Shown: piece by piece, positions 26,407-35,273 of the stretch
Numbering within the stretch: the stretch's first letter is position 1
Layout: each line of letters begins with the position of its first letter
Source of the DNA: Streptomyces davaonensis JCM 4913
GTDB taxonomy: Bacteria; Actinomycetota; Actinomycetes; Streptomycetales; Streptomycetaceae
Assembly: GCF_000349325.1 (NCBI RefSeq)
Contig: NC_020504.1
Span: forward strand, 3,692,053 to 3,756,052
DNA length: 64,000 bases
Direction: 5' to 3'
Made by a program: the position numbers and the translations under genes
The notes under the pieces: generated by a model
The model's input: the letters and a program-made list of their open reading frames with translations, nothing else
Databases searched by the model: none
Told to the model about the DNA's origin: nothing

Positions 26407-27435
26407 ATGACCCCCCCAACTCCATCAGCGGCTGCCCCGCTTGAGGCGACCGACGAGAGCGTCGAGAAGTCGATCACTTCTGACGCCCCGAAGGTGAACG
26501 AGAGCCGGTCTCCCGGGCAGCTGGCCTGGCGCCGGTTCAAGCGGGACCGCGCGGGCGTCATTTCGGCCTGCATCGTGATCTTCTTCTTCGTGATCGCGCT
26601 GTGCGCCCCGCTGATAGCCAAGCTGTACGGGAAGGATCCGTACACGACGTACGGGCTCTCGAACCCGATGCTGCTGGGCGACAACGGCCTCCCCGTGAAG
26701 CCGAACGGCGGCATCGACAGCGAGTTCTGGTTCGGCATCGAACCGCAACTCGGCCGGGACCTCTTCACCTTCCTGCTCTACGCGATCCGCAACTCGCTGC
26801 TCATCGCCACGGCCATCACGCTCCTCGTGGTGATCATCGGCGTGGCGGTCGGTGTCACCGCCGGCTATGTGGGCGGCAAGACGGATTGGTTCATCGGCCG
26901 GGTCATCGACATCCTGCTGGCGTTCCCCTCGCAGCTCTTCTTCGTGGCCTTCACCCCTGTGGTGCTCGCCCTGTTCGTGTCCGCCGACGAGAACACACCG
27001 GTCTGGCTCACCGTCGTCTGCCTGATCGGACTGCTCACCGTCTTCGGCTGGGCCTCCATCGCCCGATTGCTGCGCGGCCAGGTACTGGCCCTGCGTGAAC
27101 GGGAGTTCGTGGAGGCCGCCAAGGTCACGGGCGCGTCTCCGGCGCGCATCATCTTCAAGGAGCTGCTGCCCAACCTCTGGACCCCCATCCTGATCCAGGC
27201 AACTCTCAACCTCCCGCTGATGGTCACCACGGAGGCAGGTCTTGCCTTCCTCGGCGTGGGCATCTCGGATCCGACCCCGGACTGGGGCGTCATGATCGGA
27301 CGCGCCGCCCAGGTCTATCAGGACGACATCACCTTCCTGCTCTTCCCGGGCCTCGCGATGGTGATCTTCGTCCTGGCGTTCAACCTGCTCGGCGACTCGG
27401 TGCGCGACGCGCTCGACCCGAAGACCAAGCGCTGA
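26407..27435 (+). CDS. oligopeptide ABC importer permease, OppC type (operon B, BldKA-like)
   Basis: 342 residues. After a 40-residue acidic cytoplasmic tail, SPGQLAWRRFKRDRAGVISA leads into helix 1; long external loop with PNGGIDSEFWFGIEPQLGRD; coupling motif EFVEAAKVTGASPARIIFKE followed by LLPNLWTP; C-terminal LLGDSVRDALDPKTKR. Closely parallel to the operon C OppC (39367-40416), sharing segments such as APLIAKLYGK, ALREREF and AFNLLGDSVRDA. First gene of the plus-strand operon. Confidence 0.9.
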   Translation: MTPPTPSAAAPLEATDESVEKSITSDAPKVNESRSPGQLAWRRFKRDRAGVISACIVIFFFVIALCAPLIAKLYGKDPYTTYGLSNPMLLGDNGLPVKPNGGIDSEFWFGIEPQLGRDLFTFLLYAIRNSLLIATAITLLVVIIGVAVGVTAGYVGGKTDWFIGRVIDILLAFPSQLFFVAFTPVVLALFVSADENTPVWLTVVCLIGLLTVFGWASIARLLRGQVLALREREFVEAAKVTGASPARIIFKELLPNLWTPILIQATLNLPLMVTTEAGLAFLGVGISDPTPDWGVMIGRAAQVYQDDITFLLFPGLAMVIFVLAFNLLGDSVRDALDPKTKR

Positions 27436-27518
27436 CTCTCCGGCCCTTTTCAGGACCGCGGCAAAGGTGCCGGGGTGCCGGATCCCTCTCAACACACTCA
27501 TTTCGAAGGCAGGATGCG

Positions 27519-29285
27519 ATGTCCTTCTCGCGTAGAAACTTCCTGATAGCCACCGGTGTCGTGGCGGCGTCGAGCTCCGTGCTGTCCGCGTGCAGCAGCG
27601 GCGACTCCACCTCCAACTCCGGCAAGGGCGGGAAGGCCGAGGCCGCCAAGGCCAACGCGACCACGGTCAAGATCGGTACCGCCGAGGACTCCAAGGGCCC
27701 GGCCCCCGAGGTCTCCGGTGCGAAGAAGGGCGGCACCGTCCGCCTGCTGAACGACGACGACTTCTCGCACCTCGACCCGCAGCGCATCTACTACGCCTGG
27801 AACTCCCTCGCGGCGGTCGTCCTCTCCCGCACGCTGACCGGCTACAAGATCGCCGACGACGGCTCCATGACGCTGGTCGGTGACCTCGCCACCGACACGG
27901 GCAAGATGGAGGACGGCGGCAAGAAGTGGACCTTCACGCTGAAGGACGGCGTGAAGTGGGAGGACGGCTCCGACGTCACCGTCGACGATGTCCGCCACGG
28001 TATCGAGCGTGCCTTCGCCGACTACATCACCGAAGGCGCCTTCTACGTCCAGACCTGGCTGACCGGCTCGGCGGACTACCGCAAGTCGTACTCGGGGCCG
28101 TACAAGAACAAGCACCTGAAGTCGATCGAGACGAGCGGGAAGTCCATCACCTTCCACCTCTCCGAGGCCCGTCCTGACTTCAACTACGTCGTCGCGATGC
28201 ACTCCTACGCGCCGACCCCGGTGAAGAAGGACACGAAGCAGGACTACGACAAGAAGCCTGTCTCCAACGGTCCTTACAAGATCAAGTCCCACACCACCGA
28301 CAAGTCGATGGTCCTCGTGCGCAACGAGAACTGGGACCCGGCGACGGACCCGATCCGCAACGCCTACCCGGACCAGTTCGACTTCACCTTCGGAGTCGAG
28401 CAGCTGACGGCCATCGACCGTCTGCTGGCCGACGCGGGTGACGACCAGTACGCCGTCTCCTGGCGCACCATCCCGCAGGAGCGTCTCCAGAAGGCCCAGA
28501 CCGAGGCCAAGGACCGCGTCTTCTCGGAGCTCGGCAGCGGTGTCTCCTGCTACTGGATCAACACCAGCCGGGTGACGGACAAGGCCGTCCGCGAGGCCCT
28601 CATCAAGGCCTGGCCGACCGAGGCGATCCGTCGTCTCCAGGGTGGCGAGGTCCGGGGTGACTACGCGACCGGCATCATGAGCCCGCTCGTCGCCGGCTAC
28701 GAGTCGCAGGACGTGTGGGGCAAGCTGAAGAACCCGGCGGGCGACCCGGCTGCCGCGAAGAAGGTCCTGGAGAAGGCCGGCAAGGCCGGCTACAAGGTCG
28801 TCTACGCGTACCAGCAGGACGACACCCAGTCGAAGATCAAGGTCGTCATCGAGAACGCCCTCAAGGCCGCCGGCTTCGAGGTCGTCACCAAGGGCATCGA
28901 CTCCACGACCTGGTACGACCAGGTCGGCAAGCTGGACAACCAGTACGACGTGTACTGGGGTGGCTGGTCCTCCGACTGGCCGACCGGTTACTCCGTGTTC
29001 CAGCCGCTCTTCGACAGCGCCAACGTCGTGGACCAGGGCCAGAACTACTCGCACCTGAAGGACGACGCCGTCGACGCCGCCATCAAGGCCGCGACCGCCG
29101 AGGTCGACCAGGACAAGGCCAACAAGATGTGGGCGGCGCTGGACAAGCAGGTCACCGAGACCGGCGCGTTCATCCCCGACGTCTACATGCGTCGCATCTA
29201 CATGCACGGCTCGAAGCTCGGCAACGTGAAGATGGACCCGAACTTCGACGGCTGCATGCTCTACAAGCTGTACGTCAAGGCCTGA
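27519..29285 (+). CDS. oligopeptide-binding lipoprotein with Tat signal (operon B)
   Basis: 588 residues. The signal peptide has a twin-arginine motif, SRRNFLIATGVVAASSSV, and lipobox LSAC-SSG (Cys25), so export is probably by Tat, unlike the Sec signals of the other binding proteins here. Mature protein is SBP_bac_5: GGTVRLLNDDDFSHLDPQRI, WTFTLKDGVKWEDGSDVTVD, KAWPTEAIRRLQGG, and a tryptophan-rich WGGWSSDWPTGYSVFQP pocket segment near residue 490. Ribosome site GAAGGCAGG. Followed by a strong hairpin before the next gene. Diverged strongly from the operon C binding protein, so a different peptide range is likely. Confidence 0.9.
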   Translation: MSFSRRNFLIATGVVAASSSVLSACSSGDSTSNSGKGGKAEAAKANATTVKIGTAEDSKGPAPEVSGAKKGGTVRLLNDDDFSHLDPQRIYYAWNSLAAVVLSRTLTGYKIADDGSMTLVGDLATDTGKMEDGGKKWTFTLKDGVKWEDGSDVTVDDVRHGIERAFADYITEGAFYVQTWLTGSADYRKSYSGPYKNKHLKSIETSGKSITFHLSEARPDFNYVVAMHSYAPTPVKKDTKQDYDKKPVSNGPYKIKSHTTDKSMVLVRNENWDPATDPIRNAYPDQFDFTFGVEQLTAIDRLLADAGDDQYAVSWRTIPQERLQKAQTEAKDRVFSELGSGVSCYWINTSRVTDKAVREALIKAWPTEAIRRLQGGEVRGDYATGIMSPLVAGYESQDVWGKLKNPAGDPAAAKKVLEKAGKAGYKVVYAYQQDDTQSKIKVVIENALKAAGFEVVTKGIDSTTWYDQVGKLDNQYDVYWGGWSSDWPTGYSVFQPLFDSANVVDQGQNYSHLKDDAVDAAIKAATAEVDQDKANKMWAALDKQVTETGAFIPDVYMRRIYMHGSKLGNVKMDPNFDGCMLYKLYVKA

Positions 29286-29298
29286 TCCACACCTGAGA

Positions 29299-29327
29299 GG
29301 TGGGGCGGTCCCCGGGACCGCCCCACC
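29299..29327 (+). terminator. strong hairpin between binding-protein and permease genes (operon B)
   Basis: GGTGGGGCGGTCC pairs with GGACCGCCCCACC (loop CCG), 14 nt after the binding-protein stop and 80 nt before the OppB start. No T-run. It is likely to attenuate readthrough or protect the upstream transcript. The same position in operon C has one too. Confidence 0.7.
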
Positions 29328-29407
29328 CTCGGCTCGTCCACCGTGGCCTCCGGTCACCCCGGTCCGGCCTCTCCTTACGACGGCCCTCCCAGGAAAGCCA
29401 CCACCCC

Positions 29408-30388
29408 ATGCTTCGCTTCCTAGTCCGCCGGCTCCTCGGCGCCGTGATCACGCTGCTGATCATCAGCGCGGTCACGTTCATGCTCTTCTACGCGGTGCCG
29501 CGCGATCCGGCCCGCATCGCCTGCGGCAAGATCTGTACTCCGGAGACGCTGGAGCTGATCAAGCACAACATGGGGATCGCGGACCCGGTGCCGGTGCAGT
29601 TCTGGAACTGGCTCACGGGCATCTTCCTCGGCCGCGACTACCCGGGCTTCGGCCACTGCGACGCGCCGTGCCTGGGCTACTCGTTCGTCAACCGTGAGCC
29701 CGTCCTCGACACCATCCTGGACCGGTTCCCGACGACGTTCTCCCTGTTCATCGGCTCGTCCGTGGTGTTCCTGGTGTTCGGCGTCGGCACCGGCATGATC
29801 GCCGCGCTGAAGCAGGGCAAGCCGATGGACAAGATCGCCAGCAGCGCCTCGCTCATCGCCTCGTCGATGCAGATCTACTTCGTGGGCACGCTGGCCCTGT
29901 ACTTCTTCGTCTACCAGTGGCAGATCCTGGACCAGCCCGGGTACACGCCCTTCTCCGACAACCCGGGCAAGTGGTTCAGCGGGCTCCTGCTGCCCTGGCT
30001 GATCCTGGCGTTGATCTTCACCGCCAACTACACCCGTATGACGCGCTCCCAGATGGTCGAGCAGCTCAACGAGGACTACGTCCGCACGGCCCGGGCCAAG
30101 GGCCTGTCCGGTCCGAACGTGTTCTTCCGGTTCGCCTGGCGCGGTGCGATGGGCCCGATCGTCACCATCTTCGGTGTCGACGTCGGTGTGCTGCTCGGCG
30201 GCGGCATGATCACCGAGAAGACCTTCAGCATCCAGGGCATCGGCCTGCTCTCCGTCAAGTCCGTGCAGACCAACGACCTGCCCATGCTGCTCGGCATCAT
30301 GGTCCTGACGGCCGGCTTCGTCGTGCTCGCCAACATCGTGGTCGACGCCTGCTACGCCCTCATCGACCCGCGCATCAGGCTCGCCTGA
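29408..30388 (+). CDS. oligopeptide ABC importer permease, OppB type (operon B, BldKC-like)
   Basis: 326 residues from ATG 29408 (AGGAAAG upstream); the frame upstream to 29300 runs through the hairpin and is not coding. Starts MLRFLVRRLLGAVITLLIIS. Extracellular loop with two cysteine pairs, IACGKICTPETL and GHCDAPCLGYSF, a hallmark shared with the operon C homologue. Coupling motif EDYVRTARAKGLSGPNVFFR, then WRGAMGPIVTIFG and C-terminal VVDACYALIDPRIRLA. Exactly the same length as the operon C OppB. Confidence 0.9.
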   Translation: MLRFLVRRLLGAVITLLIISAVTFMLFYAVPRDPARIACGKICTPETLELIKHNMGIADPVPVQFWNWLTGIFLGRDYPGFGHCDAPCLGYSFVNREPVLDTILDRFPTTFSLFIGSSVVFLVFGVGTGMIAALKQGKPMDKIASSASLIASSMQIYFVGTLALYFFVYQWQILDQPGYTPFSDNPGKWFSGLLLPWLILALIFTANYTRMTRSQMVEQLNEDYVRTARAKGLSGPNVFFRFAWRGAMGPIVTIFGVDVGVLLGGGMITEKTFSIQGIGLLSVKSVQTNDLPMLLGIMVLTAGFVVLANIVVDACYALIDPRIRLA

Positions 30389-30436
30389 CCCTCGCCCCCA
30401 CCAGCTACCCCGCATCACCCCTCCTGGAGCGTCCCC

Positions 30437-31474
30437 GTGACGAGCACCGAACAGCAGCCCTTCCTGTCCATCAAGGACCTGAAGGTGCACTTCTCGACCG
30501 AGGACGGCATCGTCAAGGCCGTCGACGGTCTGTCCTTCGACCTCGTACGCGGCAAGACGCTGGGCATCGTGGGTGAGTCGGGGTCCGGCAAGTCGGTCAC
30601 CAACCTGACCATCCTGGGTCTGCACAACCCGGACAGCACCAAGGTCGAGGGCTCGATCACCCTCGACGGCCAGGAGCTGAACGGGGCGCCGGAGAAGACC
30701 CTGGAGAAGCTCCGCGGCAACAAGATGTCGATGATCTTCCAGGACGCGCTGACCTCGCTGTCGCCGTACCACACCATCGGCAAGCAGATCGGCGAGACGT
30801 ACCGCAAGCACACGGGCTGCTCCAAGCAGCAGGCGCGGGCGCGGGCGATCGAGATGCTGACCCGGGTCGGCATCCCGCAGCCGGAGGTGCGGGTGGACGA
30901 CTACCCGCACCAGTTCTCCGGCGGTATGCGCCAGCGCGCGATGATCGCCATGGCCCTGGTCTGCGACCCCGAGCTGCTGATCGCCGACGAGCCGACCACC
31001 GCACTGGACGTGACCGTGCAGGCCCAGATCATGGACCTGCTCAAGGACCTCCAGCGGGAGTTCGGCACCGCGATCATCTTCATCACGCACGACCTGGGCG
31101 TGATCGCCGACATCGCCGACGACGTGCTGGTGATGTACGGCGGGCGCTGTGTGGAGCGCGGCACCAAGAAGGAGGTGCTGAGCAACCCTCAGCACCCCTA
31201 CACCTGGGGCCTGCTCGGCTCCATGCCGAGCCTGGACCACCCGGTCGACGTGCCCCTCAACCCGATCCCGGGTGCGCCGCCGTCGCTGCTGAACCCGCCG
31301 TCGGGCTGCCGCTTCCACCCGCGATGCGCCTTCACCGAGAAGGTCGAGGGCGGGCTGTGCTCGTCCGAGCGGCCGCTCCTGGAGATCGTCGACGGCCGTG
31401 GCTCCGCCTGCCACCTGACCGACGAGCAGCGCCGCGACTTCTTCACCGACCTGGCCGGCAGCGCGGCCAACTGA
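30437..31474 (+). CDS. oligopeptide ABC importer ATPase, OppD type (operon B, BldKD-like)
   Basis: 345 residues, GTG start. Walker [26 protein letters not shown], signature [19 protein letters not shown], Walker [14 protein letters not shown], His in [15 protein letters not shown]-terminal HPY cysteines in [20 protein letters not shown] and [10 protein letters not shown]. It shares the unusual [13 protein letters not shown] helix with the operon C OppD, supporting their paralogy. Confidence 0.9.
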
Positions 31475-31500
31475 CGTACAAGAGACGGGATTTCACCACC

Positions 31501-32547
31501 ATGAGCAACACCTCCCCCCTCCTGGACGTCTCCGGGCTGACCAAACACTTCCCGATCAAGGGCGGTTTCCCGATCCGTCGCACCGTCGGCGCCGTCCAGG
31601 CCGTCGACGGGCTCGACTTCCAGGTCAACGAGGGTGAGAGCCTCGGTCTGGTCGGCGAGTCGGGCTGCGGCAAGTCGACGACGGGTCGCCTCATCACCCG
31701 CCTGCTGGAGCCCACGGCGGGCACGATCTCCTACCGCGGGCAGGACATCACCCACGCCAACCGCAAGCAGTTGGCGCCGGTCCGCTCCGAGATCCAGATG
31801 ATCTTCCAGGACCCGTACGCCTCGCTGAACCCGCGGCACACGGTCGGCAAGATCATCTCGGGTCCGATGGAGATCAACGGCATCAACCCGGAGGGCGGCC
31901 GCGAGAAGCGCGTGCGCGAACTCCTGGAGATCGTCGGTCTGAACCCCGAGCACTACAACCGCTTCCCGCACGAGTTCTCCGGCGGCCAGCGTCAGCGCAT
32001 CGGCGTCGCCCGCGCGCTCGCCCTGGAGCCCAAGCTGATCGTCGCCGACGAGCCGGTCTCCGCGCTCGACGTCTCGATCCAGGCCCAGGTAGTGAACCTG
32101 CTCCAGAAGGTGCAGCGGGAACTCGGCATCGCGTTCGTCTTCATCGCCCACGACCTCGCCGTCGTACGGCACTTCTCGCAGCGCGTCGCGGTCATGTACC
32201 TGGGTAAGATCGTCGAGATCGCCGACCGCGATGACCTGTACGACAACCCGCGCCACCCCTACACGCGGGCCCTGCTGTCCGCCGTCCCCGAAGCGACGGT
32301 GGACGACACGCCCGCCCGCGAGCGCATCCGCCTGACCGGCGACGTGCCCTCCCCGATCAACCCGCCCTCCGGCTGCCGCTTCCGCACCCGCTGCTGGAAG
32401 GCGACGGAGAAGTGCGCCACCGAGGCGCCGCCGCTGGTCCAGGTCGAGGGCAACAAGCCGGGCCACCTGACCGCCTGCCACTACCCGGAGATGGAGGGAA
32501 CCATTCCGGCTCCCCGTCTCTCCAAGGACCCTGAGGTGGCGTCCTGA
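31501..32547 (+). CDS. oligopeptide ABC importer ATPase, OppF type (operon B, BldKE-like)
   Basis: 348 residues, ATG 31501. Walker [32 protein letters not shown], signature [19 protein letters not shown], Walker [15 protein letters not shown], His in [16 protein letters not shown]-terminal cysteines [15 protein letters not shown] and ACHYPE. Much of residues 125-225 is identical to the operon C OppF, although the DNA differs at synonymous sites. Last gene of operon B; the terminator at 32636 follows. Confidence 0.9.
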   Translation: MSNTSPLLDVSGLTKHFPIKGGFPIRRTVGAVQAVDGLDFQVNEGESLGLVGESGCGKSTTGRLITRLLEPTAGTISYRGQDITHANRKQLAPVRSEIQMIFQDPYASLNPRHTVGKIISGPMEINGINPEGGREKRVRELLEIVGLNPEHYNRFPHEFSGGQRQRIGVARALALEPKLIVADEPVSALDVSIQAQVVNLLQKVQRELGIAFVFIAHDLAVVRHFSQRVAVMYLGKIVEIADRDDLYDNPRHPYTRALLSAVPEATVDDTPARERIRLTGDVPSPINPPSGCRFRTRCWKATEKCATEAPPLVQVEGNKPGHLTACHYPEMEGTIPAPRLSKDPEVAS

Positions 32548-32635
32548 CACACCCCTTTTCGTCAGGCGCCGCCCTTGGAACGGACTTTCACCGGCCCATT
32601 GACCCGAGCCCATGAGTGTCCGCTCCCAGGGGAGC

Positions 32636-32666
32636 GAGGGCCCGTGCCTCCCCGGCACGGGCCCTC
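32636..32666. terminator. bidirectional terminator after operon B
   Basis: Perfect 13-bp stem GAGGGCCCGTGCC / GGCACGGGCCCTC, TCCCC loop, followed by TTCC. It was probably shared by the convergent operons B and C before the IS inserted between it and operon C. Confidence 0.88.
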
Positions 32667-32690
32667 TTCCGTTACCTGTTGTTCGTTGCC

Positions 32691-32710
32691 CTAGTAGGGC
32701 TTGGTCAGGT
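32691..32710 (+). repeat. left inverted end of the IS (CTAG duplication plus 16-bp IR)
   Basis: CTAGTAGGGCTTGGTCAGGT; perfect complement of 34121-34140. Confidence 0.93.
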
Positions 32711-32805
32711 TCGTATGGGTGTGGGTATGTCCCGGTGGCAGGTGGGGCAGGCGCCGGCCCAAAGGGCGAGGAGTGTCTGTAGCTCGCGGACGACTTGGTA
32801 GAGGC

Positions 32806-34071
32806 TCAGGCCGGCGCTGCTTCTTTTGGGGTCCGGGCCAGTCGTTGCAGCGTGCAGAAGGCGTGCGCGACGGAGACGAGGGTGACGTGGTGGTGCCATC
32901 CGTTCCAGGTCCGGCCCTCGAAGTGGGCGAGTCCCAGGGCCTGTTTCATCTCCCGGTAGTCGTGCTCGATGCGCCAGCGGAGTTTGGCGAGGCGGACCAG
33001 TGTGGTCAGGGGCATGCCGGAGGGCAGGTCGGACAGCCAGTACTGCACCGGCTCGCTCTCGCCGGCCGGCCATTCGGCCAGCAGCCAGCACACAGGCAGT
33101 TCCGGGCCGTCGACGTGCTGGCGGACCTCGCGTCCGGCGGACCGGATCCGCAGCGCCACGAAGCGGGAGTACATCCGCTTGCGGCCGGAGCGGCCGGTGC
33201 CGGGCCGGGAGCCCTCCCGCCACTGCACCGGCCGGGCCGCCTTCCGGCCCGCCGCGATGACCAGCTCCTTCACCGGCCGCGGCTTGTCGGGATACTTCGC
33301 CACCGGCGGGCGTCCGGACCCGGAGTGCGGTTCGGCCACCGGCACCGCGTCGGCGGGCTGGGCAGACAGCGTGGTGGAGATGCCCACCACGTAGTTCAGG
33401 CCGCGTTCCTGCAGTCCGTTCCGGAACGCGGCGGCGTCACCGTATCCGGCGTCCGCGACGGCCAGCGGCACCTCGATGCCCCAGGAGCGGGTCTCGTCGA
33501 GCATATCCAGGGCCAGCTGCCACTTCTCCACATGCCCGACATCGTCCGGGATACCGCAGGCTGTGCGGCGGGCGACCTTGTCCGCATCGGCCTTCGGCGA
33601 GGCGGGATCCCAGCTCTGGGGCAGGAACAACCGCCAGTTGACCGCCGCCGAGGCGTGGTCGGACGCGAGGTGGAGGGAGACGCCGACCTGGCAATTGGTG
33701 ACCTTGCCGGCCGTGCCGGTGTACTGCCGCGACACACACGCCGAGGCAGTCCCGTCCTTGAGGAACCCTGTGTCGTCGAAGACGAAGGCGTCGGGCCCGA
33801 TCCTCTCCTCCATCCGCCAGGCGAGCTGGGCCCGGATGTGTGCCGGGTCCCAGGGACTGGTGGTGATGAAGTTGGCCAGTGCCTGCCGGTTCCCGTCCTC
33901 ACCCAGGCGGGCGGCCATCGGCTCGACCGATTTACGCTGCCCGTCGGTCAGCAGCCCCCGCAGATAGACCTGCCCCCACCGTCGCTGATCCCTGCGCGCA
34001 AACGGCTCGAACACCTCCGCCGCGAACGTCTCCAACTCACCACGCACCAACGCAATCTCGTCCGGAGTCAC
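32806..34071 (-). CDS. IS701-family DDE transposase
   Basis: 421 residues, intact. DDE superfamily (DDE_5-type) features: [12 protein letters not shown] (first Asp, about residue 98), [20 protein letters not shown] (second Asp), and [23 protein letters not shown] (Glu in the Y-2-E-type helix). Start at 34071, 50 nt inside the right end. Its transcription runs in the same direction as bldK operon C, directly downstream, so operon transcripts could read into it. No frameshift or internal stop, suggesting recent activity. Confidence 0.9.
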
Positions 34072-34120
34072 ACACTCTCAACGCCACACCGGCCCAGCAG
34101 GACACGCAACACCACAACCG

Positions 34121-34140
34121 ACCTGACCAAGCCCTACTAG
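34121..34140 (-). repeat. right inverted end of the IS
   Basis: ACCTGACCAAGCCCTACTAG. Bases 34137-34140 (CTAG) are the second target-duplication copy and contain the TAG stop of the adjacent ABC ATPase gene. Confidence 0.93.
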
Positions 34141-35273
34141 GAAGTCGTCGAACCGCCATCCTCTTCGAGCTGTTCCTCCAGCGCCGCCAGCGCCGGGTCC
34201 AGCACGATGTCCTCGTCCCGTGCCTCGATCGTCGGGTCCTCCGGGAAGTGGCAGGCCGTCAGGTGGCCCTCGTGGTTGCCGGAGAGGCGAATCAGCGGGG
34301 GTTCCTCCGTCGCGCACTTGTCCTGGGCCTTCCAGCACCGGGTGCGGAAGCGGCAGCCCGACGGTGGGGAGATCGGGGACGGTACGTCACCGGCCAGCCG
34401 GATGCGTTCCCGGGGCGACGCGGACTCGTCCGCCAGGTTCACCTCGGGCACCGCCGAGAGCAGGGCGTGGGTGTAGGGGTGGCGAGGACGGGTGTAGATG
34501 GACTCCCGGTCGCCGACCTCGATCACCTTCCCGAGGTACATGACCGCGACGCGCTGCGAGAAGTGCCGTACGACGGCGAGGTCGTGGGCGATGAACAGGA
34601 ACGCGATGCCGAGTTCCCGCTGCACCTCCTGGAGCAGGTTGACCACCTGCGCCTGGATGGAGACGTCCAGGGCCGACACCGGTTCGTCCGCCACGATCAG
34701 CTTCGGTTCCAGAGCCAACGCGCGGGCCACGCCGATGCGTTGGCGCTGGCCGCCGGAGAACTCGTGCGGGAAGCGGTTGTAGTGCTCGGGGTTGAGGCCC
34801 ACGATCTCCAGGAGTTCACGGACCCGCTTCTCCCGGCCGCCGTCCGGATCGATGCCGTTGATCTCCATCGGACTGGAGATGATCTTGCCGACCGTCTGGC
34901 GGGGGTTGAGCGAGGAGTAGGGGTCCTGGAAGATCATCTGGATCTCGGACCTGATCGGGGCCAACTGCTTGCGGCTGGCGTGGGTGATGTCCTGGCCCCG
35001 GTAGGAGATCGAGCCCGACGTGGGCTCCAGCAGCCGGGTGATGAGGCGGCCGGTGGTCGACTTGCCGCAGCCCGACTCCCCCACCAGGCCGAAGCTCTCA
35101 CCGACGTTCACGGTCAGGTCGATGCCGTCCACGGCCTGGACGGCGCCGACGGTCCGGCGGATGGGAAACCCGCCCTTGACCGGGAAGTGCTTGGTCAGCC
35201 CCTCCACTTTCAGCAGCGGCTCCCCGGCCGTCGCGGCCTGCCGGGGAGCGGGGAGGACGAGGTCCTCTGTCAT
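34137..35273 (-). CDS. bldKE: oligopeptide ABC importer ATPase, OppF type (operon C, probable BldKE)
   Basis: 378 residues, start ATG 35273 (GAGGACACGTC upstream). Walker [32 protein letters not shown], signature [19 protein letters not shown], Walker [15 protein letters not shown], His in [11 protein letters not shown]; cysteines [15 protein letters not shown] and ACHFPED. It has an extra acidic C-terminal tail ([20 protein letters not shown] ending GGSTTS). Its TAG stop lies in the CTAG target duplication of the IS, so the product is intact. BldK imports an extracellular oligopeptide needed for aerial mycelium formation in S. coelicolor; the name here is by gene order next to typA. Confidence 0.82.

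Follow-up and report, generated by a model that had tools for sequence, protein, structure and literature searches.

An IS701-family element on the stop codon of an oppF-type gene in Streptomyces davaonensis: insertion at CTAG and the availability of its targets

In the gap separating two converging peptide-transporter operons in the genome of Streptomyces davaonensis JCM 4913 (9.56 Mb, two contigs) there is an IS701-family element whose edge falls exactly on the stop codon of the last gene of one operon, an oppF-type gene, raising the question as to whether this position reflects a functional association with the operon or the manner in which the element chooses its targets. A sequence-only reading of the window (the whole 64,000-nucleotide stretch of DNA that was analysed, to which the coordinates below refer unless a contig is named) took the first view, and proposed that transposition may be tied to developmental expression of bldK. 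Our analyses point to target choice rather than developmental wiring, and coupling of the two is unsupported; we consider it very probable that this is an insertion into CTAG in which the 4 bp were duplicated and the stop codon was kept, leaving a harmless copy of the element after oppF.

The element is 1442 bp long (32695 to 34136, minus strand) and lies between two copies of CTAG, at 32691 to 32694 and at 34137 to 34140. Its terminal inverted repeats, TAGGGCTTGGTCAGGT (32695 to 32710) and ACCTGACCAAGCCCTA (34121 to 34136), are perfect over 16 bp and are contained within 33-bp arms that are 85% complementary; the perfect 20-bp ends described earlier are obtained once the flanking CTAG is counted in, but the inverted repeat proper is only 16 bp. 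The transposase gene (32806 to 34071, minus strand) has a GTG start, and its 421-residue product matches NCBIfam NF033540 (transpos_IS701) with 416.3 bits over the whole model, against a cut-off of 150, as well as Pfam DDE_5 (E 6.4e-98). The element therefore combines an IS701-type DDE transposase with terminal inverted repeats and a 4-bp target duplication, in agreement with its earlier assignment to the IS701 family, and its insertion presumably followed DDE transposase chemistry.

The oppF-type gene (34137 to 35273, minus strand; Pfam ABC_tran and oligo_HPY, NCBIfam dipeptide ABC ATPase) ends with the residues GGSTTS, and its TAG stop codon (34139 to 34137 on the minus strand) lies inside the right-hand CTAG. 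When the flanks are joined without the element they read GTTGCC-CTAG-GAAGTCG, just as the sequence-only reading had reconstructed the site, and the OppF protein is unchanged by the insertion. The outer three bases of the right inverted repeat are TAG on the minus strand, and the frame across the end of oppF consequently reads TCC TAG TAG GGC, with the tip of the element contributing a second in-frame stop. The operon, which extends from 40416 down to 34137 and encodes a permease, a solute-binding protein, a second permease and two ATPases (Pfam), has the gene order of BldKABCDE as its make-up is given in the accessible part of PMC11303876. By gene order it is thus bldK-like, and a candidate only, since a second transporter operon faces it (26407 to 32547, with two ATPase genes at 30437 to 32547 identified by Pfam). 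Among the 120 homologues listed, out of 1492, for the neighbouring solute-binding protein, those named by organism are all from Streptomyces, the best being 96% identical, and the name BldK does not occur among these 120, whose names are abbreviated. The interval between the operons, which occupies 32548 to 34136 in the window, ranges from near zero in relative G175 to about 7 kb in G007 and G024 (compared in G003, G007, G011, G016, G024 and G175).

The genome contains 17 matches to the element, six of which are full-length and near-identical (the window copy included), two full-length at 79–80%, and nine partial or weak. That the insertion is special to bldK finds no support, five near-identical copies being located elsewhere and four of these (L002 to L005) being mutually identical. 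The window copy differs from those four by two bases, one of which alters residue 311 (S in the window, P in the others). The remaining one, L006 (G000:C1:8123521-8124971), carries a transposase gene one base longer than that of the four identical copies, probably a frameshift. CTAG is present on both sides of all six near-identical copies, more often than chance would give, such that the CTAG noted earlier at the outer edges of the window copy is a regular feature; of the two diverged full-length copies L008 likewise has CTAG flanks, and both flanks of L007 are CTAC. L003 (G000:C1:4880105-4881554) interrupts a CTAG in which two converging genes both have their stop codon; duplication of the target there gives each gene a stop of its own. 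The open transposase frame together with the identical copies suggests recent mobility. Strong matches to the element (E up to 1e-200) are found in 44 of 392 genomes of the genus, and 36 plasmid records carry at least 80% of it in one place. S. europaeiscabiei is a plant pathogen.

To describe target choice more broadly we assembled insertions from the S. davaonensis genome, from genus genomes (150, then 392, the two sets overlapping), from a scan of public contigs (79 loci) and from 13 deep-searched genomes. An insertion was kept if both ends were recognised (no more than 3 mismatches in 14 nt) and its length was 1430–1450 bp, with one row for each distinct flank; truncated copies and those with unrecognised ends were excluded, and the site set is correspondingly biased to intact elements. 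In a further genome sample 9 of 150 matched, and the four new loci proved to be two places already in the set and two incomplete copies. Equal 4-bp flanks occur at 110 of the 116 distinct sites, CTAG on both sides at 105 and other pairs at five (GTAG twice, CTAC, ATAG and CTGG), while the flanks of six are unequal through decay, rearrangement or recombination. The five equal non-CTAG pairs show the 4 bp to be target that was duplicated, as opposed to part of the element, and it is from them that the two CTAG copies in the window take their status as a target-site duplication; the earlier proposal that duplication regenerates the oppF stop is well founded, the TAG being kept within CTAG. That CTAG belongs instead to the ends of the element, with no duplicated target, would also account for the 105 sites, but it is scarcely credible given the five exceptions and the uninterrupted homologues of two interrupted sites (L074 and L084), which have a single 4-bp copy (CCAG and CTGG, respectively) where the interrupted site has two. 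These homologues came from a plasmid search with three joined-flank queries, in which the matches are homologues with a single 4-bp target and not identical alleles; at L082 the homologue has one CTAG, but only about 11 bases align on one side.

Members of the IS701 family are usually assigned a YTAR target. At several positions next to CTAG the bases at insertion sites are unlike those at genomic CTAGs (254 genomic flanks compared with 210 from the 105 sites; lowest p 4e-5), a difference to which repeats common to the sites may contribute, and the tetranucleotide is accordingly only part of the target. The weak preference outside it at the 105 CTAG/CTAG sites is approximately (A/G)GGC(C/A), read towards the target from each side.

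Why such insertions are so often found exactly on stop codons is explained by the availability of the target. For an 800-kb sample of the S. davaonensis genome (L147 to L186) base composition predicts 2151 occurrences of CTAG, of which 127 are seen, a depletion of about 17-fold. Genes were called with a home-made codon-usage classifier trained on 265 long open reading frames of this sample, with a 100-codon window and a threshold of 0.05 as the main setting; by these calls C precedes 38 of 128 predicted TAG stops and 277 of 469 TGA stops. Five of the 127 genomic CTAGs were too near the end of a stretch and three of the 105 CTAG insertions had too little flank, leaving 122 and 102. A predicted stop is hit by 29 of the 102 insertions; among the genomic CTAGs the figure is 32 of 122, and among random positions 4 of 4000. 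The first two shares are indistinguishable (Fisher p=0.76), although the background comes from one genome and the insertions from many. Across four classifier settings the stop hits were 25–31 of 102 for insertions and 29–35 of 122 for background (Fisher p 0.45 to 0.88). Predicted genes contain 4 of the 102 insertions, 12 of the 122 genomic CTAGs and 3102 of the 4000 random positions; the in-gene share of insertions is below that of other genomic CTAGs, but this difference is not significant (p=0.12). Because about one quarter of CTAGs lie on TAG stops, about one quarter of insertions should do so by availability alone, and the stop hit after oppF is ordinary for this element. That the element recognises gene ends or stop codons themselves, and not CTAG alone, might be imagined from the 28% of CTAG insertions that fall on a predicted stop; we regard it as very improbable, as genomic CTAGs are predicted stops equally often (26%) and the three equal non-CTAG pairs that were classified include two in the 'other' category, one within a gene and none on a stop. 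The classifier is imperfect at single sites, in that at a stricter setting L004 was placed in 'other' although the site reads like a true gene end, the frame ending there resembling the end of a LysR-type regulator gene.

The alternative that functional coupling was selected, with transcription of oppF entering the transposase gene so that transposition follows developmental bldK expression, draws on the anatomy of the junction. The transposase gene is indeed co-oriented with oppF and directly downstream of it, both being on the minus strand and 65 nt apart. The element had also been said to separate the operon from the only strong terminator of the junction, of which the displacement stands but the terminator is less certain. 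A G+C-rich hairpin at 32636 to 32666 lies 24 bp beyond the element, which thus parts oppF from it; the 71-nt stretch containing it folds at -42.2 kcal/mol on the plus strand and -42.0 kcal/mol on the minus strand (z -4.9 and -4.1), and it has a counterpart in the IS-free junctions of two relatives. A consensus terminator scan requiring a T-run found none between 32300 and 34500, and Rfam at gathering scores gave no match between 29000 and 36500. Stability on both strands and the counterpart in relatives suggest that the hairpin may end both operons, and it is probably a two-way terminator. On the strand by which transcription from oppF would enter, the initial 104 nt of the element are no more stably folded than shuffled sequences (z -0.6), and this, together with the displaced hairpin and the lack of a T-run terminator in the scan, makes read-through from oppF into the transposase gene possible.

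A selected coupling would be more persuasive if the element tended to share the orientation of the gene that it hits, and in our smaller first set of 77 sites, which counts one two-gene stop site twice, there is such an excess at the loosest setting (16:6, p=0.05; 10:4 to 16:6 by setting, p 0.05 to 0.33). In the larger set of 102 sites, from which the two-gene site is omitted, 28 insertions lie on the stop of just one gene, 17 in the direction of that gene and 11 against it (p=0.35), a ratio obtained at two settings, with 14:10 (p 0.54) and 19:11 (p 0.20) at the others. Since the window copy is moreover one of six near-identical copies, and stop hits equal target availability, we consider selected coupling unlikely, and the tie between IS activity and developmental bldK expression that had been suggested finds no support in either the orientations or the stop hits. 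Co-orientation of an element behind an operon should accordingly not be taken as regulation.

The comparison with empty sites in sister strains that the sequence-only reading had put forward could be realised in part. A search with the joined flanks against 392 genomes of the genus found no exact empty allele of the oppF site, while two relatives have IS-free junctions, G175 with a contiguous match (79%) and G183 with its two halves some 160 bp further apart; CTAG is absent from the oppF end in both, and most other listed matches covered one half only. Elsewhere among relatives, 4 of the 20 oppF orthologues examined (L039, L041, L042 and L057) end in CTAG and lack the element. The joined flanks of L003 matched in 134 of the 392 genomes, many across the whole query, such that the element is absent there; in the 19 loci that were aligned, divergence of the gene ends obscures the individual bases of the site.

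Insertion at CTAG can thus be pictured as follows. The element inserts almost only at CTAG, presumably by means of its DDE transposase, and duplicates the 4 bp, in a host where CTAG is strongly depleted, lies mostly outside gene interiors and about a quarter of the time is a TAG stop. With the palindromic CTAG duplicated, each side has its own copy and the stop is retained, the TAG at the tip of the element adding a second in-frame stop after the duplicated one; the copy after oppF is one such harmless insertion. More tentatively, and perhaps doubtfully, targeting of CTAG could be a safe-site strategy suited to high-G+C genomes, directed at a rare palindrome that hosts exclude from coding sequence. 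If so, the element would spread with only about 4% of its insertions breaking predicted genes, and with the stop doubled. The element offers a measurable example of an insertion sequence rendered nearly harmless by the depletion of its target word from genes.

In the open-access literature, as represented by titles and the beginnings of abstracts, we found no work on Streptomyces that deals with IS701 elements at CTAG or at stop codons, but there are informative comparisons with known systems. According to the accessible part of PMC8024623, other IS701 family members duplicate 4 or 5 bp, which fits the 4 bp duplicated here. The same portion of that source describes the Geobacillus elements ISGka1 and ISGka2, also of the IS701 family, as having repeats of 4–9 bp and insertion sites with no surrounding consensus, in contrast to the near-strict CTAG of the window element. 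A likeness in target is offered by IS5 of Escherichia coli, for which the accessible part of PMC11894529 gives the target consensus CA/TAG/A and CTAG flanks in fucAO activation mutants; like the window element it duplicates a short target and has CTAG flanks. IS5 nevertheless belongs, by name, to another family, and in the case described there it is intergenic, with a fusion promoter by which it switches on the downstream operon.
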